From Fusobacteriaceae bacterium (lineage in GTDB: Bacteria > Fusobacteriota > Fusobacteriia > Fusobacteriales > Fusobacteriaceae), in contig JAITPM010000043.1 in the NCBI GenBank assembly GCA_031289425.1, forward strand, positions 1-48,791: a stretch of 48,791 nt of DNA, read 5' to 3'. Of the stretch, positions 2,583 through 33,413 are shown piece after piece (positions within the stretch are counted from its first letter, which is position 1; each line of letters opens with the position of its first letter). The notes beneath the pieces were generated by a model that worked only from the letters and a program-made list of their open reading frames with translations, made no database searches and was not told where the DNA came from. Both the position numbers and the translations under genes were made by a program.

Positions 2583-3842
2583 GTGAAAATGACAATGACT
2601 CAAAAAATTATAGCCGCACATTGTGGAATTCCTGAAGTTGAGGCAGGTCAACTAGTAAATGCAAATGTAGATTTAGTCTTAGGAAATGATGTCACAACAA
2701 CTGTAGCTATCCAGGAATTTAAAAAAGTTAAAATGCCTAAAGTATTTAACAGAGAAAAAGTCGTTATTGTTTTGGATCATTACAATCCATGTAAAGATGT
2801 GGCTGCAGCACAACAGTGTAAGGACTGCAGAGATTTTGCAAGAGAACAAAATATTACTAATTTTTTTGATGTTGGTGCTATGGGAATAGAACATGCACTA
2901 ATTCCTGAGAAGGGACTTGTCAAATCCGGCGATTTAGTTGTAGGAGCAGATTCTCATACATGTACCTATGGAGCTCTCGGGTCATTTTCAACTGGATTTG
3001 GAAGCACTGATTTTGCAGCTACTATGCTTTCTGGAAAAGTATGGTTAAAAGTTCCAGAAGCAATAAAATTTAATATAATCGGTAAACCTAGTAAATGGAT
3101 AAGCGGAAAAGATTTAATTTTGCATATAATTGGTAAAATTGGTGTGGATGGAGCTCTATATAAATCCATGGAATATGTTGGTGAAGGAATACAATATTTA
3201 TCTATGGATGATCGATTTACTATATGCAATATGGCCATAGAAGCCGGTGCAAAAAATGCTATATTTCCAGTAGATGCAAAAACCATCCAATATATGAAAG
3301 AATATGGAAATAAAAATTATATTATAACAGATTCTGATCCAGAGGCTGAATATATCAAGGAATATACAATTGATCTATCAACATTGAAACCTACAGTAGC
3401 ATTTCCTCATCTTCCTGAAAATGCAAAAGAAATCGGAACATTTGATAAAATAGATATTCAACAAGTTGTAATTGGCTCTTGTACCAATGGAAGAATCAGT
3501 GATTTAAAAATTGCGGCAGATATTTTAAATGGTAAAAAAGTAAAAACATTTGTTCGGACTATTATTATTCCGGCGACGCAAAAAATTTACATGGATGCAT
3601 TGGAAGCAGGGTATATAAAAATATTCATTAATGCAGGCTGTGCTGTATCAACTCCCACTTGTGGCCCTTGTATTGGAGGATATATGGGAATATTAGCGGC
3701 AGGAGAAAAATGTGTTGCAACTACAAATCGCAATTTTAAAGCACGTATGGGGCATATAGATTCTGAAGTATATTTAGCGAGTCCTGCAGTAGCGGCATCA
3801 TCAGCTATTATGGGATATATAGCATCTCCTGAGGAGGTTTGA
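2583..3842 (+). CDS. LeuC-like large subunit of an aconitase-superfamily hydro-lyase (copy 1)
   Basis: A GTG start at 2583 is chosen because GGGAGG at 2568-2573 lies 9 nt upstream; the frame is open further 5' without a better site. This gives about 419 residues, the size of isopropylmalate/homoaconitate-type large subunits. The three [4Fe-4S] ligands are present: C300 in GSCTNGR, and C360 and C363 in [23 protein letters not shown] is also conserved. The family adds or removes water on 2-hydroxy-diacids (3-isopropylmalate, homocitrate, citramalate, dimethylmalate, maleate). The LeuD-like partner follows within 6 bp. Leucine biosynthesis is unlikely because leuA and leuB are absent and the neighbours are a D-tartrate dehydratase, a TRAP transporter and a CoA-transferase. 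Confidence 0.9.
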
Positions 3843-3848
3843 TAGATA

Positions 3849-4346
3849 ATGATAAAAGGAAAAATTTGGAAATTTAAAGATGATATTGATACTGATGTAA
3901 TATATCCAGCCCGATTTATGAATACATCTGATATCAATATTATGGGAACACATTTAATGCAAGATTACGATTCTGATTTTATAAATAAAATTGCTATAGG
4001 GGATATTGTAGTGGCTGGAAAGAATTTTGGTTGTGGTTCATCACGTGAACATGCACCATTGGCATTAAGAATTGCAGGAATTTCTTGTGTGATTGCTGTT
4101 AGTTTTGCAAGGATTTTCTATAGAAATTCTATAAATACTGGCTTAGCAATTATAGAATGTCCTGAGGCTGTCAGAGAATCCACTGAAGGTGATGTAATGT
4201 CAGTAGACATCATAACTGGCATTATAACAAATGAAACAAATGGAAAAATATACAATGGACAACCATTTCCAGAGTTTATACAAGAAATTATAAGTAAAGG
4301 CGGGTTAATTCCTTATATCGACAGCGAAATGAATAAATCAGAATAA
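3849..4346 (+). CDS. LeuD-like small subunit of an aconitase-superfamily hydro-lyase (copy 1)
   Basis: A 165-residue swivelling-domain subunit that pairs with the LeuC-like protein encoded just before it. It carries [12 protein letters not shown] near the N-terminus and the signature [11 protein letters not shown] (about residues 59-69). The loop that selects substrate in this family (usually written as Y-L-x-x after P-A-R) reads F23-M24-N25-T26. That differs from the YLRT-type loop of homoaconitases and from isopropylmalate enzymes, so a non-standard substrate is expected. The Shine-Dalgarno site GAGGAGG overlaps the end of the large-subunit gene. The second copy, at 31717, has a different loop. 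Confidence 0.9.
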
Positions 4347-4410
4347 ATGATTTATATCAATATTTTTTAGGATAATAATTTTTTGATTAATTAAAAGGAG
4401 GTATAGTAAT

Positions 4411-5577
4411 TTGAAAATCACTAGTATTATTGAAAAAACTGTACCACTTGGCTCAGCTATAGCCAATTCATACATTAATTTCAGTATGATGACGGGTAGC
4501 ATCATTGCGATAGTAACTGATGTTGTTAGAGATGGCAAGCAAATAATAGGATATGGTTTCAATTCCATTGGACGCTATGCTTGTACAAGCATACTACGAG
4601 ATCGTATGATAGGAAAAATATTAAATGCTGATCCGATAGATGTGTACGATGAGGATATGAGTAACATCGATCCTTTTAAAGTACATAAACTGCTCAAGAA
4701 GAACGAGAAGCCGGGTGGTCATGGGGATAGAGCACATGCTGTAGGAGCTATTGATATGGCAGTATGGGATGTTGTTGCTAAAATTGAAAAAAAACCTTTG
4801 TATCAAGTTATCGGTGAAAGATTTAATAATAAGTTGTGGAGTGATAAAATTTATACCTATGCTGCAGGTGGTTATTATTATGAAACTGATAGTATAGAAC
4901 GTTTAAAGGATGAACTAAAAAAATATATTGATCAGGGGTTTCATGATGTAAAAATGAAGATAGGAGGAGCGGATCTGAAAACAGATGTGAAAAGAATAGA
5001 AGCCGCTTTATCTGTTGTCGATGGTGATGGTAGTCGATTAATGGTGGATGCTAACGGTAGATATGATATGAAAGCGGCTTTGGAATGTGCGATAGCTATT
5101 AAAGATTTTGGACTCAAATGGTACGAAGAACCATTAGATCCGGCAGATTTTTCGAGCTATGCAGTAATAGCTGAATATTATCCTGGTCCAATAGCAACAG
5201 GTGAAAATCTTTTTTCTTATGAGGATGCACGAAACCTGTTTCGACATGGAGGACTTCGCCCAGATAGAGATTATATACAAGTTGATCCACCACTTTCTTA
5301 TGGCATAATCGAGTTTATAAAAATTTTAAATATGATGCATTATTTTGGGTGGGCAAATAAAAATTGTATCCCGCATGGTGGAAATCTATTTTGCAATCAT
5401 ATTGTTGCAGGTCTCAAACTAGGAGGAAATGAATGCTATCCTGGAATTTTTCAACCGTTTGGTGGCTTTGCGGATGGAAATATAATAGAAAAGAGTATTG
5501 TTCAACTTCCTAATATTCCGGGAATTGGGTATGAAGCTAAATCAAATCTATGGAAGGTATTAAGGCAAGTAGTCTAA
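4411..5577 (+). CDS. tarD: D-tartrate dehydratase-like enzyme (enolase superfamily, TarD type)
   Basis: A 388-residue enolase-superfamily protein that I recognise as very close in pattern to Bradyrhizobium TarD, which dehydrates D-tartrate to oxaloacetate. Active-site residues fall at the expected numbers: K100 in NEKPGGHGDR, the KxK pair K181/K183 in KMKIGG, metal ligands D213, E239 and E265 (in DANGR, YEEP and ATGEN), and H322 in CIPHGG. The start is TTG 4411, 9 nt after AAAGGAGG (4394-4401). It follows the LeuC/LeuD pair and precedes a TRAP transporter, so tartrate or a close analogue is the best guess for the imported substrate. Specificity for D-tartrate over other C4 diacids is inferred from the conserved residues. 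Confidence 0.82.
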   Translation: MKITSIIEKTVPLGSAIANSYINFSMMTGSIIAIVTDVVRDGKQIIGYGFNSIGRYACTSILRDRMIGKILNADPIDVYDEDMSNIDPFKVHKLLKKNEKPGGHGDRAHAVGAIDMAVWDVVAKIEKKPLYQVIGERFNNKLWSDKIYTYAAGGYYYETDSIERLKDELKKYIDQGFHDVKMKIGGADLKTDVKRIEAALSVVDGDGSRLMVDANGRYDMKAALECAIAIKDFGLKWYEEPLDPADFSSYAVIAEYYPGPIATGENLFSYEDARNLFRHGGLRPDRDYIQVDPPLSYGIIEFIKILNMMHYFGWANKNCIPHGGNLFCNHIVAGLKLGGNECYPGIFQPFGGFADGNIIEKSIVQLPNIPGIGYEAKSNLWKVLRQVV

Positions 5578-5679: not shown

Positions 5680-6702
5680 ATGAAACAAATCAAAGGAAAC
5701 ATATGTAAATTATTGGTAATGATATTAGTAATGCTTAGTATTGTATCTTATGGAGCTGAAAAATCAGCAAAAAAACCCTCCGTAGTTATTACTTTAGCTA
5801 CCGGAATGTCGGAAGATCATGCCGCTAATATAGCTTTTAAAAAATTTATAAAAACAATTGAAGAAAAATCTAATGGTGAAATGACTGGAATTCTTTACCC
5901 GAATAATCAATTGGGGGGAGATGTTGTTGCGATGCAAGGGACACAAGATGGATCTATTGTAATGTGTTGGTCAACTACGGCCAATCAAGTATCTCTAATT
6001 CCAGAATTAGCTATTTTCGATATTCCATTCATGTATGATAACTTAGAACATGCTATAAAAGCTATGAATAATGAAGAATTTCTAAATAAAATCCAAGAAA
6101 AATTTAATGCTGCCGGATTGCACTGTGCCGGTGTTACTCCAACTGGATTTCGTTGGTTATCTGCAAACAAAGAAATCCATAAATTAGAAGATTTGAAAGG
6201 CTTGAAAATTCGTACAATGGAAAATGCTTATCATATTGCCGCATGGAAAGCACTAGGTGTAACACCTACCCCTCTTGCTAATTCTGAACGCTATGCAGCT
6301 TTACAACAAGGTACTGTAGATGGGCAAGAAAATGCAATGGAAAATGCTTATAGTACAAAAATGTATGAAGTACAAAAAGTTTTCATTAATACACAACATA
6401 TTTGTTACTTAAGTAGTTGGGCTATGAATAAAGATTTTTATGATAAATTGTCTCCAGAACACAAGGCAATTTTTGATGAAGCAATGGAAATTTGTGTAAA
6501 AGAAGCACAAAAAGCGACAATAGAAAATGAAGAACAACTACTAAAATCGCTGGAATCTATGGGAAAAACAGTTATCAGATCTTTGGATCCAGGGGAAAAT
6601 GATAGATGGAGAAAAATCGCACAACCTGCGGCTGAAGATTTGGTGCGTAAAAACATCGGAAATGAAATGATAGATATTTTACATAAAGCCGTTGGAAAGT
6701 AA
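5680..6702 (+). CDS. TRAP transporter solute-binding protein, DctP family
   Basis: A 340-residue periplasmic binding protein with an N-terminal hydrophobic signal segment (about residues 8-25, cleavage near SYGA). The DctP pattern is visible, including the conserved region LKGLKIRTMENAYHIAAWKALG with the arginine (in KIRT) that binds the substrate carboxylate. The start is ATG 5680 after a GAGGAGG site. It is the first of three adjacent TRAP genes in the order P-Q-M. The cargo is likely the hydroxy-diacid handled by the hydro-lyases upstream. Confidence 0.92.
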   Translation: MKQIKGNICKLLVMILVMLSIVSYGAEKSAKKPSVVITLATGMSEDHAANIAFKKFIKTIEEKSNGEMTGILYPNNQLGGDVVAMQGTQDGSIVMCWSTTANQVSLIPELAIFDIPFMYDNLEHAIKAMNNEEFLNKIQEKFNAAGLHCAGVTPTGFRWLSANKEIHKLEDLKGLKIRTMENAYHIAAWKALGVTPTPLANSERYAALQQGTVDGQENAMENAYSTKMYEVQKVFINTQHICYLSSWAMNKDFYDKLSPEHKAIFDEAMEICVKEAQKATIENEEQLLKSLESMGKTVIRSLDPGENDRWRKIAQPAAEDLVRKNIGNEMIDILHKAVGK

Positions 6703-6760
6703 TAAAATTTTTTAACAAGCTATTATTGTAATTTGCAAAACAAATAAAGGGGTGTTCACA

Positions 6761-7240
6761 ATGAAAAAATTATTGATTTGGTTTGATAAGTATGCAGAGG
6801 CCAGTGTGATGGGGTTATTAATTTTTTTGATGACTATTTTCATGGCTATTCAAATAGTTCTTCGCTATTGTTTTGGTAATTCATTAATTTGGGTAGAAGA
6901 AGTAATTGTATACTTCAATGTATGGATTGGATTTATCGGAATTAGCTATTGCGTACGATACAAATGCGATATGAAAATAGATGCCTCTGGAATATTCCCC
7001 TCAACTATTGCAAAATATTTTCGATATATTTCCAGTATTGTTTTGTTTATTGTCTATCTCTATATGGGATATATAGGAATAGGTGTTGTGAAAACATTAA
7101 TGCGTACCGGTCAACGAAGTCCGGCAGCAGGAATCCCCATGTATTTTGTATATGGTTCTTTAATGATAGGATGTCTACTATCGTCATTTCGTTTTATTCA
7201 AAGGTTCTATCTTTTTATTAGATCGAAAAAGGAGGGATAG
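6761..7240 (+). CDS. TRAP transporter small membrane subunit, DctQ family
   Basis: About 159 residues with four predicted membrane helices and the motif WVEEVIVYFNVWIGFIG, typical of DctQ. ATG 6761 is chosen over an in-frame GTG 9 nt upstream because AAAGGGGTG at about 6746-6754 is well spaced for it. It lies between the binding protein and the large permease, and its stop is 3 nt before the next start. Confidence 0.9.
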   Translation: MKKLLIWFDKYAEASVMGLLIFLMTIFMAIQIVLRYCFGNSLIWVEEVIVYFNVWIGFIGISYCVRYKCDMKIDASGIFPSTIAKYFRYISSIVLFIVYLYMGYIGIGVVKTLMRTGQRSPAAGIPMYFVYGSLMIGCLLSSFRFIQRFYLFIRSKKEG

Positions 7241-7243
7241 TCA

Positions 7244-8527
7244 ATGACGGCGTTATTTATTGTTTTATTTGTTGCACTAATACTTGGAGTCCCTATTGGT
7301 ATCGCTCTAGTATTAGGAGCTATTGCTACTTATGTTTCTGGTTTTACAACCATCATTACACAAATATATGTCTATAAAGGTATGATAGACGGTCTTTGTT
7401 CTTATCCTTTATTAGCTGTTCCACTTTTTATATTTTCTGGACTTGTTATGGCAAAAGGTGGAATTGCAAAAAAACTTTTCGAATTCATTGCTTATTTTAT
7501 GGGAAAAATGACAGCAGGGCTTCCTATTGCATCTGTTATCACTTGCCTTTTTTATGGAGCACTCTCCGGTTCTGGACCAGCGACAACTGCAGCGGTCGGA
7601 AGCATGGTTGTACCATACTTGGAAGATCTTGGTTATAATAAAAATTTTTCAGCTGCTTTGGTAGCGACAGCAGGTGGATTAGGGGTGATTATTCCCCCGA
7701 GTGTCCCTTTCATAATATATTGCTTATCTGCCAATCAATCTGTTAGTGATATGTTTATTGCGGGTATTGTTCCTGGGTTTCTTATTGCAGCATGTTTATC
7801 AATAACTGCCTGGTTAATTTGCAGAATTAAGGGAGAAGATAAAGAAAAATTAATAGAAAATCATAAAAATATTAAAAGTCGTGGGTTTTGGCCAATATTG
7901 AAGGATAGTTTTTGGGCTCTTTTAACGCCAGTAATCATTTTGGGTGGTATTTACGGTGGAATTGTTACACCAACAGAAGCAGCTACAGTGTCAGTAGTAT
8001 ATTCCGTTATAGTAAGTATGTTTATTTATAAGACAATAACTTTTAAAGATATTCCTGGAATTTTACATGAAACTGGAAAAAATTTAGCACCTATGTTGGT
8101 TGTAATTGCTGCTGCTGTTATTTTTGGTCGAGTGCTTACGTTATTAAATCTTCATACTCTTGTAACAAATTTTATAACTAGTATTGTTCATTCTAAAGTG
8201 ATTATACTTTTAATTCTAAATTTAATTCTATTATTGGCAGGAATGTTAATCAATACTACATCAGCAATTTTAATTCTAACTCCGGTTTTACTCCCTATAG
8301 CGAAATCTATAGGTGTTCATCCGATACATTTTGGTATGATAATGGTTGTCAACCTATCTATAGGATTTGTTACGCCTCCGGTTGGTTCCAATTTATTCGT
8401 TGCATGTGGTATGTTTAATATTCCTATAACTACGATGACAAGACATACGCTACCATTTATTTTTGCTTTTGCAATAGCACTAATTTTGGTTACTTTTATT
8501 CCGATAATTTCACTCTGTCTAATATAA
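7244..8527 (+). CDS. TRAP transporter large permease, DctM family
   Basis: A 427-residue, very hydrophobic protein with about 12 membrane segments. Family hallmarks are PLLAVPLFIFSGLVMAKGG, the GALSGSGPATTAAVGSM loop and GGLGVIIPPS. It couples sodium flow to uptake of the carboxylate delivered by the DctP protein. It starts 3 nt after the DctQ stop, so the two are translated together. Confidence 0.93.
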   Translation: MTALFIVLFVALILGVPIGIALVLGAIATYVSGFTTIITQIYVYKGMIDGLCSYPLLAVPLFIFSGLVMAKGGIAKKLFEFIAYFMGKMTAGLPIASVITCLFYGALSGSGPATTAAVGSMVVPYLEDLGYNKNFSAALVATAGGLGVIIPPSVPFIIYCLSANQSVSDMFIAGIVPGFLIAACLSITAWLICRIKGEDKEKLIENHKNIKSRGFWPILKDSFWALLTPVIILGGIYGGIVTPTEAATVSVVYSVIVSMFIYKTITFKDIPGILHETGKNLAPMLVVIAAAVIFGRVLTLLNLHTLVTNFITSIVHSKVIILLILNLILLLAGMLINTTSAILILTPVLLPIAKSIGVHPIHFGMIMVVNLSIGFVTPPVGSNLFVACGMFNIPITTMTRHTLPFIFAFAIALILVTFIPIISLCLI

Positions 8528-8578
8528 CAAATATGAGGTATAATATATATGAACAAATAATACATCCGAGGGGGAATT

Positions 8579-9538
8579 ATGCAAAAGTTAAAAATAGTTA
8601 TTTTAGACGGATATCGAGAAAACCCGGGAGACTTATCTTGGGATTGGTTGGAAAAATATGGAGAATATCAAACATACGATAAAACGGATCAGCTGGCAGT
8701 GCCAGAAAGGATTAGAGAAGCAGATGTTGTTTTTACAAATAAAGTTGTTTTAAACAGAACATCGTTAAAACAGGCTCAAAAATTAAAATTTGTAGTCGTA
8801 TTGGCAGCAGGATATGATGTTGTGGATATAAAGGCTGCAAAGGAGCTTGGAATCAAAGTATCCAATACCCCTAATTATGGTTCTAACGAAGTGGCACAAA
8901 TGGCATTTGCTCATATTTTAGAAATCACGAACAATATAGGAAAGCATAGTTTATCTGTAAAAAATAATGGATGGTATCAAGCAAACGATTGGTGTTATTG
9001 GTTGAATCCGATTATCAGTTTGCGAGATAAAAATATAGGCATCATCGGTTATGGAAATATAGGAAGACAGGTAGGCAAAATTGCTGCTGCTTTTGGAATG
9101 AATGTAATCGTTTCTGAAAAAATAAAAGTTGAGGATAAAAACGTTGAAAATGTTCCACTGGATGAATTATTCAAAAGAGCAGATATTATCACGTTACACT
9201 GTCCGCTTACTGATGAGACCAAAGATATTATTTGCAAAAAAAATATTCAAAAGATGAAAGATGGTGTCATTATCATCAATACTGCCAGAGGCCCTCTTAT
9301 CAATGAAAAAGATATTCAAGAGGGAATAAAGAACAAAAAAATTTATGCTGCCGGCTTAGATGTTTTGCATAGTGAGCCGCCGAAAGAAAATGATGAACTC
9401 ATTATGTGTGATGGAATAAATATAACGCCCCATATTTCTTGGGCAGCCTTTGAAGCAAGAAAAAATATAATGACGATATGTGAAGAGAATCTAAAAGCAT
9501 TTTTAAATGGTGAAAATAAAAATATTGTAAATTTTTAA
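8579..9538 (+). CDS. HprA-type D-2-hydroxyacid dehydrogenase (hydroxypyruvate/glycerate type)
   Basis: A 319-residue NAD(P)-dependent D-isomer dehydrogenase. The opening IVILDGYRENPGDLSWDWL is characteristic of the glycerate dehydrogenase/hydroxypyruvate reductase branch. The nucleotide motif GYGNIG is at 157-162 and the catalytic triad is R237 (NTARG), E266 and H285 (TPHISW). It sits at the end of the tartrate-like operon and is followed by a strong terminator. It could reduce hydroxypyruvate to D-glycerate, or a 2-oxo-diacid such as oxaloacetate to a D-hydroxyacid, to dispose of reducing power. The choice is inference. Confidence 0.85.
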   Translation: MQKLKIVILDGYRENPGDLSWDWLEKYGEYQTYDKTDQLAVPERIREADVVFTNKVVLNRTSLKQAQKLKFVVVLAAGYDVVDIKAAKELGIKVSNTPNYGSNEVAQMAFAHILEITNNIGKHSLSVKNNGWYQANDWCYWLNPIISLRDKNIGIIGYGNIGRQVGKIAAAFGMNVIVSEKIKVEDKNVENVPLDELFKRADIITLHCPLTDETKDIICKKNIQKMKDGVIIINTARGPLINEKDIQEGIKNKKIYAAGLDVLHSEPPKENDELIMCDGINITPHISWAAFEARKNIMTICEENLKAFLNGENKNIVNF

Positions 9539-9585
9539 CAGTGTTGTTTATTAATTGCAGGGATTTGAATTATATAAAAATATAT

Positions 9586-9616
9586 AAAGACATCAGATTT
9601 TTTGATGTCTTTTTTT
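9586..9616 (+). terminator. Intrinsic terminator after the hprA-like gene
   Basis: AAAGACATCA (9586-9595) and TGATGTCTTT (9603-9612) form a perfect 10-bp stem with a 7-nt loop, followed by a T run to 9616. It lies between the end of the tartrate operon and the convergent LysR gene. The reverse strand is less T-rich after the stem, so it mainly serves the forward operon. Confidence 0.85.
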
Positions 9617-9646
9617 ATATGAAAAGTATGCAGGATTTCAAGGATT

Positions 9647-10543
9647 CTATTGTTTATTCCAAAATATTTTTGCTAATTCTATAAAGGTTTTTGCAGGCTT
9701 GGATAAATAAGAGCCCTTTCTATAACAAATCACCATGTCCCAAGAGGGATGTTCTTTAATAGGAAAATAAGAAAGATATTCACTATCAAGTTTGGCGTAA
9801 TAATAGGGAATAATTCCGCAACAAATTGAGGATTTTACTACTGATACAATACTACTGGTATATTTAGTTTCAAATAATAACTTGGGAATAAATCCTGCTT
9901 TTTCAAATATTTGGTCTATGATTTCTCTGTTTGTAGATTCCTTATTCATAAGCACAAATGATTCATTCTTTAACGTAGATAAATCTATTGGTTGGGAGGT
10001 ATCTATTCCTTTTAGAATAGGATGATTTTTGGATGTAGCAAAAACCATTTCTTCAGATTTTAATACGATATAATTATCGTTTGTTCTTTGAGCTTCTGAT
10101 AGAGTCATGAATCCAACATCCAATTCATCTCTGGCAATTTTATATTGTTGTTGACGCACAGATAGTTCCATGGGTTCTAAAACTAAGTTGGGATGTAATC
10201 TAATCAATTTTCTAAAAATTGCTATGAACATTGCTATTCCTCTTCCAGGGGTTAATCCAATAGACAAATGACCAACATTGCTTTCTATGCAATCATAGAT
10301 TTTGTTGTAGGTCTCTTTTTTTATATTTAATATTTGTTTGGCATTATTTATATATATTTTACCGGCTTCAGTAAGTCGCCAATTAATACGTGATCTATAA
10401 AAAAGTTGAGTACCTAATTCCTTTTCTAATTTCAGTAATTGTTGATTCAGAGCAGATTGTGTAATAAATAATTTTTCAGCAGCATGAGTAATATTATTCT
10501 CTTCAGCAATTTTGACTATATATTCCAATTGTTTAAGATCCAT
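9647..10543 (-). CDS. LysR-type regulator of the aldarate operon
   Basis: 298 residues with the LysR N-terminal winged helix (MDLKQLEYIVKIAEENNITHAAEKLFITQS, HTH at about 18-37) and a C-terminal effector-binding domain. The start codon lies 6 nt after AAGGTGA on the reverse strand. It is divergent from garD, separated by 279 bp, the usual layout for a LysR gene controlling a neighbouring catabolic operon. The inducer is probably galactarate, glucarate or an intermediate, by inference. It is clearly less similar to the other two LysR proteins here than they are to each other. Confidence 0.93.
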   Translation of the reverse strand: MDLKQLEYIVKIAEENNITHAAEKLFITQSALNQQLLKLEKELGTQLFYRSRINWRLTEAGKIYINNAKQILNIKKETYNKIYDCIESNVGHLSIGLTPGRGIAMFIAIFRKLIRLHPNLVLEPMELSVRQQQYKIARDELDVGFMTLSEAQRTNDNYIVLKSEEMVFATSKNHPILKGIDTSQPIDLSTLKNESFVLMNKESTNREIIDQIFEKAGFIPKLLFETKYTSSIVSVVKSSICCGIIPYYYAKLDSEYLSYFPIKEHPSWDMVICYRKGSYLSKPAKTFIELAKIFWNKQ

Positions 10544-10822
10544 TTTTCACCTTATTTAAATAAATTTTATAGTATCTATTTATTATTATATACTAAAGAT
10601 CAATAAAACTCAATATTATATGATATATCTATAAGAAAAATTAATATAAATCTAAAAAAAAAGAAGTTTACTTAATAATAAATATTAGATAAAATGATAT
10701 TATATATAAAAATATTCTTAAAAAGAATGTTTTGTAGCAAAAACAACATATTGTTCTAGAAAAAACCATATAAAGTGAATTTTAAATCAATCAAAAATCT
10801 AAAATCAAAAAAGGAGAAAAAA
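10544..10822. promoter_or_regulatory. Divergent lysR-garD control region
   Basis: This 279-bp AT-rich gap holds no gene. Close to garD there are two small dyads: ATTCTT-AAA-AAGAAT (10714-10728) and AACA-TAT-TGTT (10745-10755). Either could be a regulator binding site. No convincing -35/-10 pair was found. Confidence 0.45.
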
Positions 10823-12340: not shown

Positions 12341-12371
12341 AATATCATAAATACAAAAGGAGAATTATACC

Positions 12372-22615: not shown

Positions 22616-22637
22616 ATTAAAATAATTATAATTATTA

Positions 22638-22667: not shown

Positions 22668-22690
22668 GCTTTATTTTTTATTTTCTTTCT

Positions 22691-23819: not shown

Positions 23820-24314
23820 ATGGTATTTTTAAAATGGCTGGACGAACACTTTGAAGAAACAGCACTTTCCATATTTCTAATTGTACTCGTAATCTTAACA
23901 TCTATCAATGTTATTTTGAGATATGTTTTTAATAGTGGACTGACTTGGAATGATGAAATATGTAAATATTGCCTAATTTTTTCGGGGTTTATAAGTATAG
24001 GTTATTGGATAAGACATAAAAATGGGATATGTGTGGATACATTAGTTCAAATATTACCTTCAAAATATAGGAAAATACTGTTGTTTATGACTCAATTAGT
24101 GGTATTGATATTTTTTTGTATCTTATTTTTTTATTCGGTAAATGTTTTGAAATCAGTAGCTAAAAGCAAACAAATAAGTGGAACATTACAAATATCTATG
24201 GTGTATGTTTATATGGCTCCGGTTATAGGTTTTGCCTTAGCTGTTATAAGAATATTCCAAGTCTTAATTCTGGGTTATTTTGTAGCCGAGAGTGTAGGGA
24301 GTGATAAAAAATGA
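23820..24314 (+). CDS. TRAP transporter small membrane subunit, DctQ family
   Basis: 164 residues, four predicted membrane helices, with NSGLTWNDEICKYCLIFSGF matching the DctQ W-x-E/D-E motif. ATG 23820 has GAGGAGG 9 nt upstream. Its stop overlaps the start of the permease gene (ATGA), so the two are translationally coupled. Gene order here is Q-M-P, unlike P-Q-M in block A. Confidence 0.9.
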   Translation: MVFLKWLDEHFEETALSIFLIVLVILTSINVILRYVFNSGLTWNDEICKYCLIFSGFISIGYWIRHKNGICVDTLVQILPSKYRKILLFMTQLVVLIFFCILFFYSVNVLKSVAKSKQISGTLQISMVYVYMAPVIGFALAVIRIFQVLILGYFVAESVGSDKK

Positions 24315-25609: not shown

Positions 25610-25675
25610 CATAAATATTTTTATAAATACTATTTTAATAAAAAAAGATTTAATAAAAAAGGAGAAGTGATATTC

Positions 25676-26671
25676 ATGAAAAAAATGCTATTAATATTAT
25701 TAGTAATTTATGTATCAATTTCATCATTTATTTTTGCGGCACCAAAATATACTTGGACTGTAGCAATGAATGTAACAGAGTCAACTTTAAATTATAAAAT
25801 GATGGACAAGTTTAAAGAATTAATAGAAGCTAAAAGCAATGGAAATATAGTTGTAAATCTATATGCTAACGGGCAATTGGGAAATGATACTGAACAAATG
25901 CAAGGATTAGTAGAAGGAGCAAACGACTTCATAACAACAATAACTAGTGGATTACCATCATTTGTACCGGAATTTGGGGTATTTGATTGTCCTAATATAT
26001 TTCCAAATCTTACAGTTATGAGAAAGGTATTGGATGACGAAAAATTTGTAGTGGCTCTAAACAAATATTCTGAAAAAGTAAATATTAAACTAATGGGAAT
26101 GGCAGATGCAGGATTTAGACAAACAACATCCAATGTCATGATAAATAAAGCCGAAGATTTTAAAGGTATCAAAATACGTGTAATACAAAATCCTTATCAT
26201 ATAGCATATTGGAAATCTTTAGGAGCTAATGCATTAGCTATGGACTTTAGTGAAGTATATGTAGGATTGAAACAAAATACTATAGACGCACAAGAAAATC
26301 CCTATATGAATATAGTTGCAAATAAATTTTACGAAGCACAAAAATATGTAATTGAAACTAATCATTTAGGACATGTAATAGTATTTTTAATGAGTAGCTC
26401 ACTATATAATGGATTGACACCAGAGGAAAAGAAATTGGTCGATGATTGTTCTCATGAAGCGATTATTTATACTAGAGGATTAGCCGATGAAAGTATAAAT
26501 GATGATAAAGAAACAATAAAGAAAAGCGGAACAACAATAATCGAGTTAGCTCCATCAGAAATAGAAAAGATGAAAGTTTCAGCAGATGAAGTTTACAAGC
26601 AAATAAGAAATGCTATTGGCGATGAATTGGTTGATACGTTATTAAAATCAATCGAAGACAACGCAAAATAG
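25676..26671 (+). CDS. TRAP transporter solute-binding protein, DctP family
   Basis: About 331 residues with a signal peptide (KKMLLILLVIYVSISSFIFAA, cleavage after FAA). The conserved carboxylate-binding region reads FKGIKIRVIQNPYHIAYWKSLG, with arginine in KIRV. ATG 25676 is chosen because GGAG at 25661-25664 is 11 nt before it and only 2 nt before an in-frame GTG at 25667. The cargo probably feeds the amidohydrolase and the glucarate-dehydratase-like enzyme downstream. Confidence 0.92.
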   Translation: MKKMLLILLVIYVSISSFIFAAPKYTWTVAMNVTESTLNYKMMDKFKELIEAKSNGNIVVNLYANGQLGNDTEQMQGLVEGANDFITTITSGLPSFVPEFGVFDCPNIFPNLTVMRKVLDDEKFVVALNKYSEKVNIKLMGMADAGFRQTTSNVMINKAEDFKGIKIRVIQNPYHIAYWKSLGANALAMDFSEVYVGLKQNTIDAQENPYMNIVANKFYEAQKYVIETNHLGHVIVFLMSSSLYNGLTPEEKKLVDDCSHEAIIYTRGLADESINDDKETIKKSGTTIIELAPSEIEKMKVSADEVYKQIRNAIGDELVDTLLKSIEDNAK

Positions 26672-26714
26672 ATATTATTTTTAATATATTATCCTTATTG
26701 TGGAGATTTAGATT

Positions 26715-27854
26715 ATGAAAAAAATGATAATAAAAAATGGAACTACATATAATCCATTTACAAAAGAGTTTGATAAAAAGAATATAGCTATAAATGGAAA
26801 TAAAATTGTCGAGACCCCAAGAGAGATTAATAAAGATTGGAATATATTAGATGCTACCAATTGTATAATTGTTCCTGGACTTATTGATTATCACATACAT
26901 TTATATACCGGTTGTGATGGAGGAGTGCCTCCTGATATCGCTACTCTGCCAAATGGAGTAACAACCGCTGTAGATGGTGGGACATGTGGAGTAAGTAATT
27001 ATGAATTATTCGAAAAATATGATATAACTAATTCCCGTGTTAGAATAAAGAGTTATCTACATGTTTCGCCTACAGGTCTTGCTACGACTGCTTATACAGA
27101 AAATGAAGATCCAAAATATTATGATTTAGATAAAATGCGAGAATTATTTGATAAATATAGAGATCATCTAATAGCTTTGAAATTCAGAATATCTAAGGAT
27201 ATAGTAAGATCTTCTGGACTTACGAGAGAGCCCTTAGAAAAAACTATAGAAATAGCAGAGGTGCTCAAATGTAAAGTGGTGGTACATATGAACGACCCGA
27301 TTATTCCTATCGAAGACGTGGCTGATATGCTCCGTCCCGGAGATGTATTTTGTCATATGTATCATGGGATGGGAGATACAATCATAGATAATTCCGGATT
27401 AGTGAAAAAAAGGATTTTGGAAGCTAGAAAAAGGGGTATAATTTTTGATGCATGCAATGGAAGAAGCAATTTTTCATTCAAAATAGCAATTCCGGCAATA
27501 AAAAATGAATTTATCCCAGATATTATAAGTACCGATATGAGTCCTATGACACTTTATGAACATCCGGTAATAAATTTACCGAGACTTTTATCCAAATATC
27601 TAAATATGGGAATTGATATAAAAAAAATATTTGATATGGTGACAATAACACCGGCAAAACAAATAGGAATGGAAGAGGAATTGGGTTCTCTAAATATTGG
27701 AACCGTAGCGGATATAGCAATTTTTAAGATAATAGAAAAACAAATTAAATTTTACGATTATTTAGGAGAATACATAAATGGGAATCAAGTAATAATCCCA
27801 CAAATGACTATCAAAGATGGGAAAATAATGTATCGCCAGACAGATTTCAATTAG
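26715..27854 (+). CDS. Amidohydrolase-superfamily metallohydrolase (Cog3964 type)
   Basis: 379 residues. Metal ligands are visible in order: H60 and H62 (DYHIH), a probable bridging carboxylated lysine K156 (LIALKFRIS), H191 (VVHMND), H214/H217 (CHMYHG) and D274 (STDMSP). This is the pattern of the proteins often mislabelled dihydroorotase. Characterised Cog3964 members hydrolyse O-acetyl esters of 2-hydroxycarboxylates such as acetyl-(R)-mandelate. Sitting between a TRAP importer and a glucarate-dehydratase-like gene, it may remove an acyl group from an acylated aldaric acid. An amide or lactone substrate is also possible. Confidence 0.85.
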   Translation: MKKMIIKNGTTYNPFTKEFDKKNIAINGNKIVETPREINKDWNILDATNCIIVPGLIDYHIHLYTGCDGGVPPDIATLPNGVTTAVDGGTCGVSNYELFEKYDITNSRVRIKSYLHVSPTGLATTAYTENEDPKYYDLDKMRELFDKYRDHLIALKFRISKDIVRSSGLTREPLEKTIEIAEVLKCKVVVHMNDPIIPIEDVADMLRPGDVFCHMYHGMGDTIIDNSGLVKKRILEARKRGIIFDACNGRSNFSFKIAIPAIKNEFIPDIISTDMSPMTLYEHPVINLPRLLSKYLNMGIDIKKIFDMVTITPAKQIGMEEELGSLNIGTVADIAIFKIIEKQIKFYDYLGEYINGNQVIIPQMTIKDGKIMYRQTDFN

Positions 27855-27887
27855 ATACATTATACAAAAAAGAGGTGAATTATAAAA

Positions 27888-29234
27888 ATGAACGAAAAAA
27901 TAACTCCTGTTATTACTGATATGAAAGTTATTCCAGTAGCAGGAAGTGACAGTATGCTAATGACATTAAGTGGTGCTCACAGTCCTTTCTTTACCAGAAA
28001 TTTGGTAATATTAAAGGATAGCGCCGGACATACTGGTATAGGAGAAATACATGGGGGAGATTACACTTGTGAATCGCTCAAAAGTTGTATTCCATTAGTT
28101 GTAGGAAGGTCTGTAGGAACGTATAGATCAATATTGAATAGTATCCACAAAATAGCTAAAAAATCAGATGAAGATACCGGTGAAGGTATACAGTCTCTAG
28201 ATATAAGCAAGCTTAAGTTTGTGATAAAATCAGAATGGGCAATTGAATGTGCATTGTTAGATTTGTTGGGGCAATATTTGGAATTACCGATGTGTGAATT
28301 ATTAGGGGATGGAAAACAAAGAGATAAAATAGAAACTTTGGGATATTTATTTTATGTGAGCGATAAGAAAAAAGCCAATTTACCATATCTAGATGAATCA
28401 GATTCATTAGATCCATGGTTTAAAATTCGTAGAGAAGAGATGTTGACTCCCACTCGTATAGTAGAGCAAGCGTGTGTATTGCAAGAAAAATATGGGTTTA
28501 GAAATTTTAAATTAAAGGGTGGAGTACTCAAAGGTTCAGAGGAAATGGAAGCAATAAAAGCCCTCAAGAAAAAATTTCCTAACGGAAGAATAAATATAGA
28601 CCCAAATGGAGCATGGTCATTGGCAGAGGCTATCGAATTATGTAAGGGAATGCAAGGGATATTGACATATGTAGAAGATCCGTGTGGCCCAGAAAGTGGA
28701 TTTAGCAGCCGTGAAATCATGGCAGAATTTAAAAATGCTACAAATATGCCTGTAGCAACAAATATGATAGCAACTGATTGGAGACAATTTTATCATGCGA
28801 CAACATTAAAATCTGTGGATATAGTTTTGGCAGACCCACATTTTTGGGGGTTTGATGGAAGTGTCAGAATGTCTCAAATATTAAATGATTGGGGATTAAC
28901 ATGGGGATCACACTCAAACAACCATTTTGATATAACTCTCACTGCCTTTGCTCATGTAGCAGCTGCAGCTCCGGGTACACCTACTGCCCTGGACACCCAT
29001 TGGATCTGGCAAGATGGTCAAAATTTACTTGATGATACACCAAAAATAAAAAATGGGTATCTGGAAGTACCTACTCTTCCCGGACTTGGTGTCACTATAA
29101 ATATGGAAAAAATAATGAAAGCCAATGCACTTTATAAGAAATTATCAAACCATGATAGAAATGATGCAGAAGCAATGCAATGCTTGATTCCTAATTGGAA
29201 ATTTGATTCTAAAAAACCTTGTTTAGTACGTTGA
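27888..29234 (+). CDS. Glucarate dehydratase-like enzyme (diverged paralog)
   Basis: A 448-residue enolase-superfamily protein related to GudD/GudX along its whole length. Catalytic residues are kept: K208/K210 (NFKLKGG), D238, E263, N292 and H342 ([12 protein letters not shown]). The lid differs: the QTFDLRT segment of GudD at 12372 is replaced by QSLDIS followed by KLKFVIKSEW, so the substrate-contacting threonine becomes serine and the arginine is lost. It therefore probably dehydrates a related but different aldaric acid, or works as an epimerase-like accessory as proposed for GudX. It ends the TRAP/amidohydrolase operon. Confidence 0.87.
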   Translation: MNEKITPVITDMKVIPVAGSDSMLMTLSGAHSPFFTRNLVILKDSAGHTGIGEIHGGDYTCESLKSCIPLVVGRSVGTYRSILNSIHKIAKKSDEDTGEGIQSLDISKLKFVIKSEWAIECALLDLLGQYLELPMCELLGDGKQRDKIETLGYLFYVSDKKKANLPYLDESDSLDPWFKIRREEMLTPTRIVEQACVLQEKYGFRNFKLKGGVLKGSEEMEAIKALKKKFPNGRINIDPNGAWSLAEAIELCKGMQGILTYVEDPCGPESGFSSREIMAEFKNATNMPVATNMIATDWRQFYHATTLKSVDIVLADPHFWGFDGSVRMSQILNDWGLTWGSHSNNHFDITLTAFAHVAAAAPGTPTALDTHWIWQDGQNLLDDTPKIKNGYLEVPTLPGLGVTINMEKIMKANALYKKLSNHDRNDAEAMQCLIPNWKFDSKKPCLVR

Positions 29235-29317: not shown

Positions 29318-29347
29318 AAAAATCTGGGTATCAATACTCAGGTTTTT
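29318..29347. terminator. Terminator between the gudD paralog and LysR
   Basis: AAAAATCTGGGTAT (29318-29331) pairs with ATACTCAGGTTTTT (29334-29347), with two G-U pairs in the forward RNA and a T run at the 3' end. The reverse LysR stop codon lies inside it. A and T flanks suggest it works in both directions. Confidence 0.75.
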
Positions 29348-30242
29348 CTTCTTTTGGAAAATAATTTTTTATATACGAACAAAATTCACGTTCCGGCTTA
29401 TTTGATAACCAATTTTTCCTTCGTACAAGTACATCATATCTATATAATTTGGGAGATAAATGATAGCAGGCAATATTTGTAGTATCAACTATACATGATT
29501 CTGGTATAAAAGCAACTCCTATACCTTTTGATACCATATTCCTTATCATTACGATAGAATTGCTTTCAAACATTGTGTTGGGAGTAAAATCAAATTCTGC
29601 AAAAAGTTTGTCTGTCATAGCTCTTAAAGAAAATCCTTTCCTGAAACGTAAAAAATTATCATCTTTAAACAATTGTACAAAGTCTTTTGTAGGAATAGGT
29701 GTATTTTTATTTATTTCATAGTAGGGATGGCTTTTTGGAATGGCAAAATATATTTCTTCATTTCTTAAAATATCGCATTGATTGGGGAAAACAGATAGGT
29801 TTGCTAAAGTCATGACACCCAAATCAACAGTTTCTTCCAAAATTAGTTTTATAAGATTGGGCACATCAGTTTCACGGATTTCGACTGTTACATTGGCGAA
29901 TGTAGATTTAAATTTGGGAATTATTTCCGATAAAATTTGAAGTCCAAACTGAGAAGCAACACCTACAGCTATATGGCCTTTATTATTTAAATTCTTAATA
30001 TCTTGATATACTTTTTTCTTGATTTCTATCATTTGTTCAGCTGCCTGTATATATAAAAGTCCCGCCGGAGTCAAGGCAAATTCCCCTTTTGTACGAAAAA
30101 AGAGTTTTGTCCCAAGTTCATCTTCCAATTTTGCGAGGAATTGACTTAAAGAGGATTGTGAAACATAGAGTTCTTCTGAAGCACGAGTCATATTTTTTTT
30201 CTTAGCAATTGTGAGAATATAATTTAAATATCTTACATCCAT
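29331..30242 (-). CDS. LysR-type regulator (paralog 2 of the twin pair)
   Basis: 303 residues, opening MDVRYLNYILTIAKKKNMTRASEELYVSQSSLSQ. It resembles the LysR at 22691 closely in the DNA-binding helix and most of the effector domain, so the two probably recognise similar operators. It is divergent from the second LeuC/LeuD operon. Differences lie mostly in the effector domain, in line with different inducers. Confidence 0.93.
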   Translation of the reverse strand: MDVRYLNYILTIAKKKNMTRASEELYVSQSSLSQFLAKLEDELGTKLFFRTKGEFALTPAGLLYIQAAEQMIEIKKKVYQDIKNLNNKGHIAVGVASQFGLQILSEIIPKFKSTFANVTVEIRETDVPNLIKLILEETVDLGVMTLANLSVFPNQCDILRNEEIYFAIPKSHPYYEINKNTPIPTKDFVQLFKDDNFLRFRKGFSLRAMTDKLFAEFDFTPNTMFESNSIVMIRNMVSKGIGVAFIPESCIVDTTNIACYHLSPKLYRYDVLVRRKNWLSNKPEREFCSYIKNYFPKEEKPEY

Positions 30243-30456
30243 AACATCTCCTATGAAATTATTAGAAATTATAATAGATTGATTATAATTACGAATTGGT
30301 AATTTTTAAATTTTTATTGTACTATTATCATAAGAACATTCTATAAGAAAACAAATATTTCGGGTAAAATACTTTAGATGTCTTCTTGCTTCTATTAAAT
30401 ATTATAACATAAAAACTAGGTAATATAAAATAAAAAATCATAAAAAGGTGATAAAA
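30243..30456. promoter_or_regulatory. Divergent promoter region D, homologous to region C
   Basis: The blocks seen in region C recur here: ATAATTACGAATTGG (30285-30299), TTGTACTAT (30317-30325, again 32 bp further), AACAAATATTT (30350-30360) and TAACATAAAA (30405-30414). The first block starts 43 bp from the LysR start codon, against 46 bp in region C. The shared blocks are candidate LysR binding sites and promoter elements. Confidence 0.6.
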
Positions 30457-31707
30457 ATGCACGCAATAGAAAAAATTCTGGCAAAGGCCTGTGGTAAAAA
30501 AATTGTTGAATCAGGGGAAATTATAAATGCTAAAGTCGATTTTGCTGAAATTAATGATTTATATCTGCAGACAGTTTATTCTTTTAAAGAAATGGGTGGG
30601 AAAAAAATATGGGATAAGGATAGAGCAGCCTTTGTATTTGATCATTATGCTCCCTGTCCTACTATAGAGGCAGCACGAAATCATGCAGAAATGAGAGCCT
30701 TTGCAAAGGAAAACAATTTAACCTATCATTTTGACATAAATTCTGGTGTATGTCATCAGGTAATGCCGGAATCCGGTCTTGTATATCCCGGAATGATTAT
30801 AATCGCTACAGATTCACATACCACTACTCATGGTGCCTTTGGGGCATTCGGCACCGGTGTAGGAGCTACTGATATGGCAGCTATATTGATTTCCGGAGAA
30901 ATATGGCTTAGAGTGCCGGAAATTATAGAAATAAAAATAGATGGGATTGCAAAAAAAGGCGTGTATGCTAAAGATGTGATTCTATATATTCTGGGAAAAC
31001 TAAAAGCTGATGGAGCAGTATATAAAGCAATAGATTTTACTGGAAGTTATATAAAAAATTTGGATGTCGCAGAACGAATGGTCATTTGTAATATGGCATT
31101 AGAACTAGGGGCAAAAGCAGCATATATCGAACCTAATCAAAATGTCCTTGATTATGTGAATAAAAGAGCTGTTCGTAAGTTCGAAGTACAATATACAGAT
31201 CCAGAATATAAATATGCAGAATATTACGAATTTAACATAAGTACACTTGAGCCACAGGTAGCATGTCCGTATAGTGTGGACAATGTGTTTCCTTTATCTT
31301 CTCAAACATCTGTAAAAATTAATCAAGGTGTAATAGGGACATGTACCGGTGGAAGATTGGAAGATATAGAAATTGCTGCAAAGATTCTAAAAAATAAAAA
31401 AATTGCAGATTATGTGCGTCTCGTTATTATTCCGGCCTCAAGAGAGGTAATGCTAGAATGTATAAATATGGGATATATCCAAGATTTGATGGATGCAGGG
31501 GCAACAATTGGAACACCAGGATGTGGGCCATGCCTGGGGGCACATGATGGGGTCATAGCAAAAGGCGAAGTGTGTATCACGGCATCTAATAGGAATTTTC
31601 CCGGACGAATGGGAAGTATAGATGCAAAGCTTTATCTTGCTTCACCTGCAGCAGTGGCAGCATCAGTACTGACCGGATATATTACTTCTCCGGAAAAATA
31701 CATATAG
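30457..31707 (+). CDS. LeuC-like large subunit of an aconitase-superfamily hydro-lyase (copy 2)
   Basis: About 416 residues from ATG 30457, which follows AAGGTGA by 5 nt (a GTG at 30448 lies inside that site). Iron-sulfur ligands are C296, C356 and C359 (TPGCGPCLGA). The first motif reads GTCTGGR rather than GSCTNGR, so a normally invariant asparagine next to the cluster cysteine is glycine (G298). ATDSHTTTHGAFG is the other conserved block. It is clearly diverged from copy 1. The neighbours (LeuD-like, acid-sugar dehydratase, CitS-type carrier) argue for catabolism of a hydroxy-diacid rather than leucine synthesis. Confidence 0.9.
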   Translation: MHAIEKILAKACGKKIVESGEIINAKVDFAEINDLYLQTVYSFKEMGGKKIWDKDRAAFVFDHYAPCPTIEAARNHAEMRAFAKENNLTYHFDINSGVCHQVMPESGLVYPGMIIIATDSHTTTHGAFGAFGTGVGATDMAAILISGEIWLRVPEIIEIKIDGIAKKGVYAKDVILYILGKLKADGAVYKAIDFTGSYIKNLDVAERMVICNMALELGAKAAYIEPNQNVLDYVNKRAVRKFEVQYTDPEYKYAEYYEFNISTLEPQVACPYSVDNVFPLSSQTSVKINQGVIGTCTGGRLEDIEIAAKILKNKKIADYVRLVIIPASREVMLECINMGYIQDLMDAGATIGTPGCGPCLGAHDGVIAKGEVCITASNRNFPGRMGSIDAKLYLASPAAVAASVLTGYITSPEKYI

Positions 31708-31716
31708 GAGGTCAAT

Positions 31717-32229
31717 ATGGAAAATATTATAAAAGGTAAAATTGTAGTACTTTCAAATAATATTGATACAGATCAGATTTATCCCGGCAGATTTCTGGCA
31801 TTGGTTGATCCAAAGGAAATAGGAAAACATTGTCTGGAGGGAATTGATGAAAAGACACGAGTCCTTGTTCCAGGTCGAATTATTATCGCAGGTACTAATT
31901 TTGGATGTGGTTCTAGCAGAGAACATGCAGTTATCACCTTGATGAATGCTGATGTAAAAGCTATAATAGCAGAATCATTTGCACGTATTTTTTTCCGTAA
32001 TGCTATTAATTTGGGTTTGCCGCTTGTTACATGTAAAAATATATTAAAAAAATCAGAAAATATTGGAAGCGATGAAGAGATTGTAATAAATATAAAAGAG
32101 GGAACAATTACTATAGGGCAAGGAGAGGTACTACAAAGCGAAAAATTAGGAGAACATATATTAAATATTATCGAAGCAGGTGGAATAAAACCTATGTTTC
32201 TAAACAAATATTCGAAGGAGGAAAAATGA
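31717..32229 (+). CDS. LeuD-like small subunit of an aconitase-superfamily hydro-lyase (copy 2)
   Basis: 170 residues with NNIDTDQIYPGRF at the N-terminus and [11 protein letters not shown] in the middle. The substrate loop reads F26-L27-A28-L29, hydrophobic, and differs from FMNT in copy 1. It follows its large subunit by 9 bp with an AGGAGG site. Its TGA stop overlaps the ATG of the next gene, coupling it to the dehydratase. Confidence 0.9.
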   Translation: MENIIKGKIVVLSNNIDTDQIYPGRFLALVDPKEIGKHCLEGIDEKTRVLVPGRIIIAGTNFGCGSSREHAVITLMNADVKAIIAESFARIFFRNAINLGLPLVTCKNILKKSENIGSDEEIVINIKEGTITIGQGEVLQSEKLGEHILNIIEAGGIKPMFLNKYSKEEK

Positions 32230-33413
32230 AAATAACGGAAATAAAAATTCTTAAAGTAAATAGTTTTATGTATGTAAAAATATTTACTGATGATGGATTG
32301 ACGGGATTAGGAGAATGCGGAACATGGGGGTTTTTAGATGCTGCTGCAGAGGCAGTGGAGACATTTAAGAGCTATCTGATAGGACAAAATCCTTTGGATA
32401 TAGAGCATCATTGGCAATACATGTACCGTAGTTTCCACTTTAGAGGGGCAGCTGTCATGGGAGCTCTGAGCGCTATTGATATAGCTTTGTGGGACATAGC
32501 GGGAAAGCATTATAATGCTCCTATATATCAGCTTATCGGGGGAAAATGCAGAGATAAAATCCGTGTATATTATCATGTGGGCGGAGCAACTATTGAAGAG
32601 ATCGTATCAAGCTGTAAAAAAGCAAAAGAATTGGGATATACAGCAGTAGGACATCTTTCTCCATTTTTAGATGAACCAAGAACAGTACCATATTTTGAGA
32701 CAGGGGTTCAAAGAATAAATCGTGCCGTAGATAGAGTACGGTTAATGCGTGAGGCGGTGGGGGATGATGTGGATCTTTGCCTTGAATTGCATAGAAGAAT
32801 GAATCCGGGCGAAGCTATTACTTTTGCCCATGCGGTAGAAAAATATAATCCATTTTTCCTTGAAGATCCGATTAAACCTGACAATTTTGATGCAATGGCA
32901 CTTATTGCCAATCGTATTAATATTCCGATTGCTACCGGAGAGAGAATCCATACTATACAGGAGTTCGAAATGCTCCTATCAAGGAATGCAGTAAATTATG
33001 TACGGACAAGTGTATGTCTATGTGGGGGTATCACAGGAACTAAAAAAATAGCTGCTATAGCCGAAGCTCATGACACTCTCATTGTGCCACATAATCCTCT
33101 CAGCCCTGTAAGTACTGTAGCATGTCTTCATATTGCAGCAGCAGTTGAAAATTTTGCGGTACAAGAACTTCCTGATCATAGTGGTCCTGCAGCGACTGAT
33201 AGATATGTTTTTGATAAATCAGAAAATGTAAAAGCGTTGAAACAATCTGATATAGTCACAAAAATTCCTGTTGTTACAAATGGTTTTATTGCACTACCTG
33301 AAGGTCCGGGGCTGGGTTTGGATCTGACAGAAAATGTGGAAGAAATCTTCCCATATAAGAGAAGAAAAGTGCATACTAGGCTTAATACAGATGGTTCAAT
33401 CTGTGATCAATAA
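32226..33413 (+). CDS. Acid-sugar dehydratase, enolase superfamily (galactonate/mannonate dehydratase-related)
   Basis: 395 residues of the mandelate racemase group. Probable metal ligands are E187 (in LELHRR), E213 (FLEDP) and E239 (ATGER). H189 in the E-x-H motif and H289 in VPHNPLSP are the likely acid/base pair, as in the DgoD and ManD branches, where the first motif is normally D-x-H. Members dehydrate sugar acids to 2-keto-3-deoxy acids. The start overlaps the LeuD-like stop by 4 nt. The C-terminal 40 residues are polar and basic. Its substrate is uncertain; the adjacent CitS-type carrier favours a short 2-hydroxy-diacid over a hexonate. Confidence 0.82.
   Translation: MKITEIKILKVNSFMYVKIFTDDGLTGLGECGTWGFLDAAAEAVETFKSYLIGQNPLDIEHHWQYMYRSFHFRGAAVMGALSAIDIALWDIAGKHYNAPIYQLIGGKCRDKIRVYYHVGGATIEEIVSSCKKAKELGYTAVGHLSPFLDEPRTVPYFETGVQRINRAVDRVRLMREAVGDDVDLCLELHRRMNPGEAITFAHAVEKYNPFFLEDPIKPDNFDAMALIANRINIPIATGERIHTIQEFEMLLSRNAVNYVRTSVCLCGGITGTKKIAAIAEAHDTLIVPHNPLSPVSTVACLHIAAAVENFAVQELPDHSGPAATDRYVFDKSENVKALKQSDIVTKIPVVTNGFIALPEGPGLGLDLTENVEEIFPYKRRKVHTRLNTDGSICDQ

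Follow-up and report, generated by a model that had tools for sequence, protein, structure and literature searches.

Why should one operon carry two hydro-lyases of unrelated fold? The question is raised twice by contig JAITPM010000043.1 of a Fusobacteriaceae bacterium, the whole 48,791-nt stretch of which was analysed and is here called the window. In each of two operons, a LeuC/LeuD pair of the aconitase superfamily (LeuCD) is followed by an acid dehydratase of the enolase superfamily: LeuC1, LeuD1 and a TarD-like enzyme in operon 1, and LeuC2, LeuD2 and a DgoD-like enzyme in operon 2. We infer, for every substrate as well as for the parallel logic, that the two unrelated hydro-lyases of each operon act side by side on different stereoisomers or close analogues of a short hydroxy-diacid, a tentative answer to which we give a little over one chance in three.

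According to this model, each operon would import a short hydroxy-diacid, which would then be dehydrated by the two enzymes in parallel. The TarD-like enzyme of operon 1 would convert D-tartrate to oxaloacetate, a [4Fe-4S] LeuCD would in both operons dehydrate the isomer suited to aconitase-type chemistry, and the DgoD-like enzyme of operon 2 would act on a further isomer or analogue that the CitS-type carrier imports. A decarboxylase would convert the oxaloacetate to pyruvate, and the genome has OadA on contig C50. We favour parallel dehydration over two serial steps because the enolase-type partner is optional, being found in 3 of 80 loci with a LeuC2 relative, and differs between lineages.

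The two operons

The preliminary description of this DNA placed LeuC, LeuD and an enolase-superfamily dehydratase in both operons, with neither leuA nor leuB in either, and open reading frames (ORFs) together with family scans bear this out. The features of operon 1 are the following.

1..966, forward: sigma-54-dependent activator, its start cut off by the window edge (PF00158, 1.3e-69)
1109..1124, forward: sigma-54 (-24/-12) promoter site 5' of operon 1, an exact match to TGGCAC-N5-TTGCW
1204..2397, forward: CaiB1, class III CoA-transferase, first gene of operon 1 (PF02515, 2.4e-125)
2583..3842, forward: LeuC1, aconitase-superfamily large subunit (TIGR02083, 685.9 bits, cut-off of 610.65 exceeded)
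3849..4346, forward: LeuD1, small subunit (TIGR02087 over cut-off; TIGR02084 221.3 bits, below 245.85)
4411..5577, forward: TarD-like enolase-superfamily dehydratase (full-length match to 2dw7, Bll6730, 1.5e-131)
5680..8527, forward: TRAP transporter DctP, DctQ and DctM (PF03480, PF04290, PF06808)
8579..9538, forward: HADH1, D-2-hydroxyacid dehydrogenase, last gene of operon 1 (PF02826, 1.8e-51)
9586..9612, forward: terminator-like hairpin 3' of operon 1 (12-pair stem and T tract; 5 such sites in the stretch scanned, 4.0 expected)

The order CaiB1, LeuC1, LeuD1, TarD-like gene, TRAP P/Q/M and HADH1 runs on one strand from the sigma-54 site to the hairpin, with a gap of 186 bp between CaiB1 and LeuC1. 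The promoter site lies about 80 bp before the operon start and is the only exact one in the window, where 0.02 would be expected. Operon 2 is laid out as follows.

29331..30242, reverse: LysR regulator, divergent to operon 2 (PF03466, 9.5e-26)
30448..31707, forward: LeuC2, aconitase-superfamily large subunit (NF001614, 540.3 bits, subfamily cut-off exceeded)
31717..32229, forward: LeuD2, small subunit (TIGR02087, 151.2 bits, over cut-off; loop motif PGRFLALVDP)
32226..33413, forward: DgoD-like enolase-superfamily dehydratase (PRK14017, 305.3 bits, just missing the cut-off of 311; PF13378, 2.2e-56)
33459..34748, forward: 2-hydroxycarboxylate transporter, CitS type (PF03390, 3.2e-133)
34769..34802, forward: terminator-like hairpin 3' of operon 2 (15-pair stem and T tract; 11 such sites in the stretch scanned, 2.9 expected)

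Here the order LeuC2, LeuD2, DgoD-like gene and CitS-type carrier is bounded by the divergent LysR gene and the hairpin. The probable LeuC2 start is the ATG at 30457, which is preceded by AAGGTG, a stretch resembling a ribosome-binding site. The 4-nt overlap of LeuD2 and the dehydratase (32226 against 32229) had been described correctly, as had the difference in carriers, TRAP (5680-8527) in one operon and 2-hydroxycarboxylate transporter (2HCT)/CitS type (33459-34748) in the other. The latter belongs to the 2HCT family PF03390 but scores 333.8 against the 600 of the CitS equivalog NF047943.

In contrast, the idea that one recurrent module occurs twice did not survive: LeuC1 and LeuC2 are 41% identical and fall in different clades, and their enolase-type partners share 23% identity, which rules out the duplication of a single module. 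Four of the 32 genes of the island belong to the enolase superfamily, and a random gene order would place one immediately after both LeuDs in ~1% of cases. Literature searches that combined LeuC/LeuD-type terms with tartrate gave no papers, and none of the titles and abstract openings from other searches describes a LeuC/LeuD pair beside an enolase-type dehydratase. An Rfam scan gave no match.

LeuC/LeuD ancestry and leucine synthesis

The genome, whose assembly is 97.81% complete, encodes three pairs of LeuC and LeuD and, as a single chain, one further aconitase-family protein. As the preliminary description had supposed, the pairs in the window are not its isopropylmalate isomerases for leucine: leucine biosynthesis is ruled out as a role for either because no Iso_dh match, and thus no leuB, was found in the whole genome, and because no LeuA is among its three HMGL-family proteins, which exceed the cut-offs of HMG-CoA-lyase types (C73, C95) and OadA (C50). 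The proteins assigned by family models to isopropylmalate dehydratase are in this genome very probably acid dehydratases of catabolism, and to infer leucine prototrophy from such proteins alone would be a mistake.

The two pairs differ in their likeness to isopropylmalate isomerase LeuCD (EC 4.2.1.33), which is likewise a two-subunit hydro-lyase. LeuC1 exceeds the TIGR02083 cut-off and keeps the cysteine motifs CTNGR and TPTCGPC, whereas LeuC2 lies far under this equivalog cut-off (LEU2, 457.0 against 610.65) and has CTGGR and PGCG in place of CTNGR and PTCG. LeuC2 also remains under the cut-off of HacA (452.2 bits), and LeuD2 scores 137.9 against the 245.85 of TIGR02084, which LeuD1 does not reach either. 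In two genomes of the same genus leuA, leuC, leuD and leuB are adjacent, and our trees group LeuC1 with the LeuC of these operons at 100/100, on a long branch. This grouping suggests that LeuC1 is a descendant of, or sister to, the isomerase of the genus itself; it carries NRNFKAR where the genus relatives have NRNFVGR.

How far the two pairings are conserved

A scan of named genomes returned 261 LeuC2 relatives, and the best 80 of these 261 were used (67-74% identity, 1.34 Mb), the LeuC2 ORF being resolved in 79 of the 80 loci (L075 was dropped). They come from Clostridia, Synergistaceae, Spirochaetales, Solobacterium, Treponema and one Lactobacillus record, many of them from rumen or gut. 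Among 61 relatives of the window's genome, a close LeuC2 was found only in G033 (59%; next 45%), and plasmids gave 4 matches at only 41-43% identity. Enolase-superfamily ORFs of at least 250 aa occur in 3 of the 80 loci, each within two genes downstream of LeuD2; no enolase-type gene was seen in the other 77, with more than 3.6 kb following LeuC2 in 63 of the 80 and some contigs ending early. Thus, LeuCD can act without an enolase-type partner.

The pairing of LeuC2D2 with a DgoD-like gene is also present in Faecalispora jeddahensis (L062) and in G119 (L087), with 68-69% identity for the DgoD-like protein and 70-71% for LeuC2. In both, the carrier is 35% like that of the window and the order is LeuC-LeuD-carrier-DgoD, against LeuC-LeuD-DgoD-carrier in the window. 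These two genomes, both Clostridia, share one class, different from that of the window, which brings the operon 2 pairing to three genomes in two classes. Solobacterium (L066) has a different enolase-superfamily gene directly 3' of LeuD2 (best match talarate/galactarate dehydratase, 217 against a cut-off of 500), and its LeuC sits elsewhere in the LeuC2 tree than that of the window; we therefore take the pairing to have arisen more than once. The expectation that the pairing would recur in relatives holds for operon 2, with two other genomes, and fails for operon 1, whose pairing appeared in no other genome examined. In two sampled trees of the LeuC2 group (17 and 22 rows, the second without a long outgroup row and with LeuC3 and five rows added), the LeuC2 proteins of the window, L062 and L087/G119 form a clade with support of 96/95 and then 99/95. 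Shared descent of LeuC2 and the DgoD-like gene as a pair is plausible on these trees, the single clade depending on sampling.

The nearest curated family of the operon 2 dehydratase is galactonate dehydratase, DgoD. It differs from DgoD in staying below the PRK14017 cut-off of 311, as do its relatives in L062 (287.4) and L169 (267.0), and in its surroundings, since operon 2 has a 2-hydroxycarboxylate carrier instead of galactonate pathway genes. DgoD-like proteins were found at E 1e-60 in 9 of 98 genomes of the window's class, the sole close one outside the window's genome being that of G080 (64%), and at E 1e-100 in 3 of the 391 genomes sampled from the class to which G100 belongs; plasmids, whose gene tables are incomplete, gave 156 records, two contexts of which were read. 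Against conservation of the pairing, the DgoD-like genes of G231 and G080 have no LeuCD nearby. In the latter (L169, 4020-9371), the neighbours are a PatB-family C-S lyase and an apparent tripartite tricarboxylate carrier. A Haladaptatus plasmid (L145, 1922-10524) encodes a DgoD-like protein 57% identical to that of the window, in the vicinity of which CaiB, malic enzyme and a CoA ester lyase are annotated.

The TarD-like enzyme of operon 1 is similar over its full length to Bll6730 (2dw7), which we take to be the D-tartrate dehydratase TarD, and keeps all of its KPGGHGxR, KMKIGG, DANG, EE, GEN and PHGG motifs, presumably the catalytic residues. Its family function would be the conversion of D-tartrate to oxaloacetate. 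TarD was found in 1 of 98 genomes of the window's class, in 1 of the 391 genomes sampled from that of G100 and in none of 50 LeuC2 genomes, the last in a search without a known positive among these genomes. Unlike in operon 1, no LeuCD stands beside TarD in G326 or in the four plasmid contexts read (107 records, again with incomplete gene tables). The GntP carrier beside TarD in G326 is 60-68% identical to the GntP neighbours of 12 LeuC2 loci; plasmids had none at E 1e-90, and the 391 sampled genomes had it in G326 plus one 43% match. G326 (L158, 4226000-4244000) also contains a broken second copy of the stretch GntP, FMN oxidase, RpiR, glycerate kinase and enolase, the other copy of which lies beside TarD.

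CaiB1 has a close relative in an operon on C73 (G000, L015:10265-17584, reverse strand), which encodes a sigma-54 activator, a CaiB 90% identical to CaiB1 and preceded by a one-mismatch sigma-54 site, LeuC3, LeuD3, an HMG-CoA-lyase type protein and a MatC-type carrier. A similar set is present in G001 (L051). This operon may allow a branched or methylated malate to be processed in a CoA-dependent manner. In G027 (L053, 2-11459), genes for a CaiB (56%), an HMG-CoA-lyase type protein and an HADH (44%) are followed further on by LeuCD, 3' of which lies a PrpF/4-oxalomesaconate-tautomerase-like gene (below cut-offs).

Substrates, rival explanations and the surrounding island

Within -2.6 to +4.3 kb of LeuC2 in 79 loci, we counted 18 2HCT carriers, 12 GntP carriers, 13 malic enzymes (12 on the same strand), 2 CitF and 2 CitXG. 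A GntR-like gene is near LeuC2 in 50 loci, and directly upstream and divergent in 41. In G033, a DASS-type carrier precedes LeuC2D2 and OadA directly follows it. The substrates of malic enzyme and OadA are malate or oxaloacetate, and malic-enzyme-type oxaloacetate decarboxylases exist; their presence beside LeuC2D2 points to oxaloacetate as the end product of its pathway.

A flexible loop of the small subunit sets substrate preference in this enzyme family, according to a published study (PMC7308503). At the position of the arginine of homoaconitase 2pkp, the 76 LeuD2-type loops read have Ala (70), Glu (4) or Asp (2) and never Arg, arguing against a third carboxylate on the substrate; the window's LeuD2 has Ala, and the HacA score of LeuC2 compares with a cut-off of 550 (NF040615). 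The solved structures closest in sequence to LeuC2 and LeuD2 are 4kp1/3vba, which we take to be the isopropylmalate/citramalate isomerase of Methanocaldococcus jannaschii, and their specificity loop differs, with YLVYT against FLALVD in LeuD2.

By our own stereochemical reasoning, the aconitase-type (2R,3S)-3-substituted malate with a hydroxyl as substituent would be meso-tartrate. The fumarases FumA and FumB are reported to form oxaloacetate from D-tartrate by dehydration and not to dehydrate the meso or L form, a difference that the authors explain by stereochemistry (PMC3565967). It is tempting to speculate that LeuC2D2 is a [4Fe-4S] meso-tartrate dehydratase in many gut and rumen anaerobes, to which enolase-type partners for other tartrate isomers were joined at least three times, giving multi-isomer operons; this is the boldest reading of LeuC2D2, and we consider it doubtful. 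If LeuC2D2 does take a tartrate isomer, this would be a new activity for the aconitase superfamily and could explain how anaerobes in which no TarD was seen use tartrate-like acids. A review of the superfamily, as far as its text was available, covers aconitase, 2-methylcitrate dehydratase, homoaconitase, isopropylmalate isomerase and AcnX types, and in that text the words tartrate and maleate are absent (PMC8184944). Two unrelated dehydratase folds have been brought together repeatedly here, a case of parallel recruitment.

Several observations weigh against parallel dehydration of tartrate-like isomers. LeuC1D1 still resembles isopropylmalate isomerase, TarD stands beside LeuCD in the window's genome only among all contexts examined, and CaiB and HADH1 in operon 1 are left without explanation, fitting a CoA scheme better. 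A common GntP carrier was considered as evidence for tartrate and is weakened by what is seen in G326, where the carrier-TarD link spans a gap of ~390 bp and a decayed second copy of the carrier is, as read, without TarD. Support for the LeuC2 clade of the three pairing genomes falls to 82/71 once L059 and more loci are added, an AU test does not reject the alternative that the window's LeuC2 groups with L059 (p 0.167), and in a quick tree of the full 79 its nearest neighbour is L059, which is 74% identical and comes without an enolase-type gene. Because these wider trees weakened the clade, we have graded both the parallel and the meso-tartrate readings slightly lower. To the same side belongs the evidence for a serious though improbable rival, in which LeuC2D2 is a two-subunit aconitase-like enzyme through which isocitrate or aconitate enters the fermentation of citrate by CitS, citrate lyase, and oxaloacetate decarboxylase or malic enzyme, with the enolase-type partner working on an unrelated substrate. 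In L064 (~7370-14335), malic enzyme, CitS, LeuCD and CitD-, CitE- and CitF-type genes form one cluster; CitXG lies near L085, and CitXG with CitF on the other strand near L089. Among 50 LeuC2 genomes, 28 have a CitF that exceeds its cut-off, as does the window's genome, where the gene is beside OadA and CitE. However, the other 22 yielded no such CitF (some genes may be lacking from draft genomes); they include the pairing genome G119 and 5 of the 9 genomes tested that have malic enzyme close to LeuCD (G106, G126, G133, G134, G136). The genome's own single-chain aconitase-family protein and the missing homoaconitase Arg in LeuD2 speak against it as well. The carrier type and the neighbours that consume C4 acids are shared with citrate fermentation clusters (CitS, CitDEF and OadA or malic-enzyme-type decarboxylase), of which LeuCD is, to our knowledge, not a described member.

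Another proposal, which we think unlikely, is that the LeuCD pairs hydrate or isomerize methylmalates or maleate (citraconate, (R)-citramalate, 3-methylmalate, D-malate). For operon 1 and the C73 operon, CaiB would form a CoA ester, an HMG-CoA-lyase-like enzyme would split it to acetyl-CoA and a 2-oxoacid, and HADH1 would reduce the latter. The C73 gene set with LeuCD3 and a CaiB 90% identical to CaiB1, its parallel in G001, the genes for CaiB, an HMG-CoA-lyase type protein and HADH that precede LeuCD in G027 and the isomerase motifs of LeuC1D1 agree with this scheme, but operon 1 has no HMG-CoA-lyase gene, and TarD, the DgoD-like enzyme and the OadA or malic enzyme beside LeuC2D2 are left unexplained. 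It is less probable still that LeuC1D1 is an isopropylmalate isomerase left over or put to new use, by chance next to TarD in an island rich in sugar-acid genes, as its 100/100 grouping, the single sighting of the pairing, the four enolase-type genes of the island and the 186-bp gap would allow. Against such chance stand the arrangement of the genes on one strand between an exact sigma-54 site and a hairpin, the long LeuC1 branch and the altered NRNFKAR motif. The preliminary description had offered either stereoisomers of a tartrate-like diacid or consecutive steps on one substrate, and the former fares better: the tight linkage and 4-nt overlap in operon 2 would suit two serial hydro-lyases, but with 77 of 80 LeuC2 loci lacking an enolase-type gene and partners that change between lineages, we regard serial action as very improbable.

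The genes between the operons are more in keeping with parallel dehydration. They encode galactarate dehydratase, two relatives of glucarate dehydratase (below cut-off and sharing 57% identity), the tartronate-semialdehyde reductase GarR, an aldolase-family protein and glycerate kinase, and this part of the island looks like one for aldarate use. Also in this region (10775-29234) are genes for TAXI-TRAP transport and for a second TRAP system, the latter with an amidohydrolase. Ribosomal protein genes follow soon after the catabolic island (36376-47454), L3 and L2 being confirmed by Pfam.

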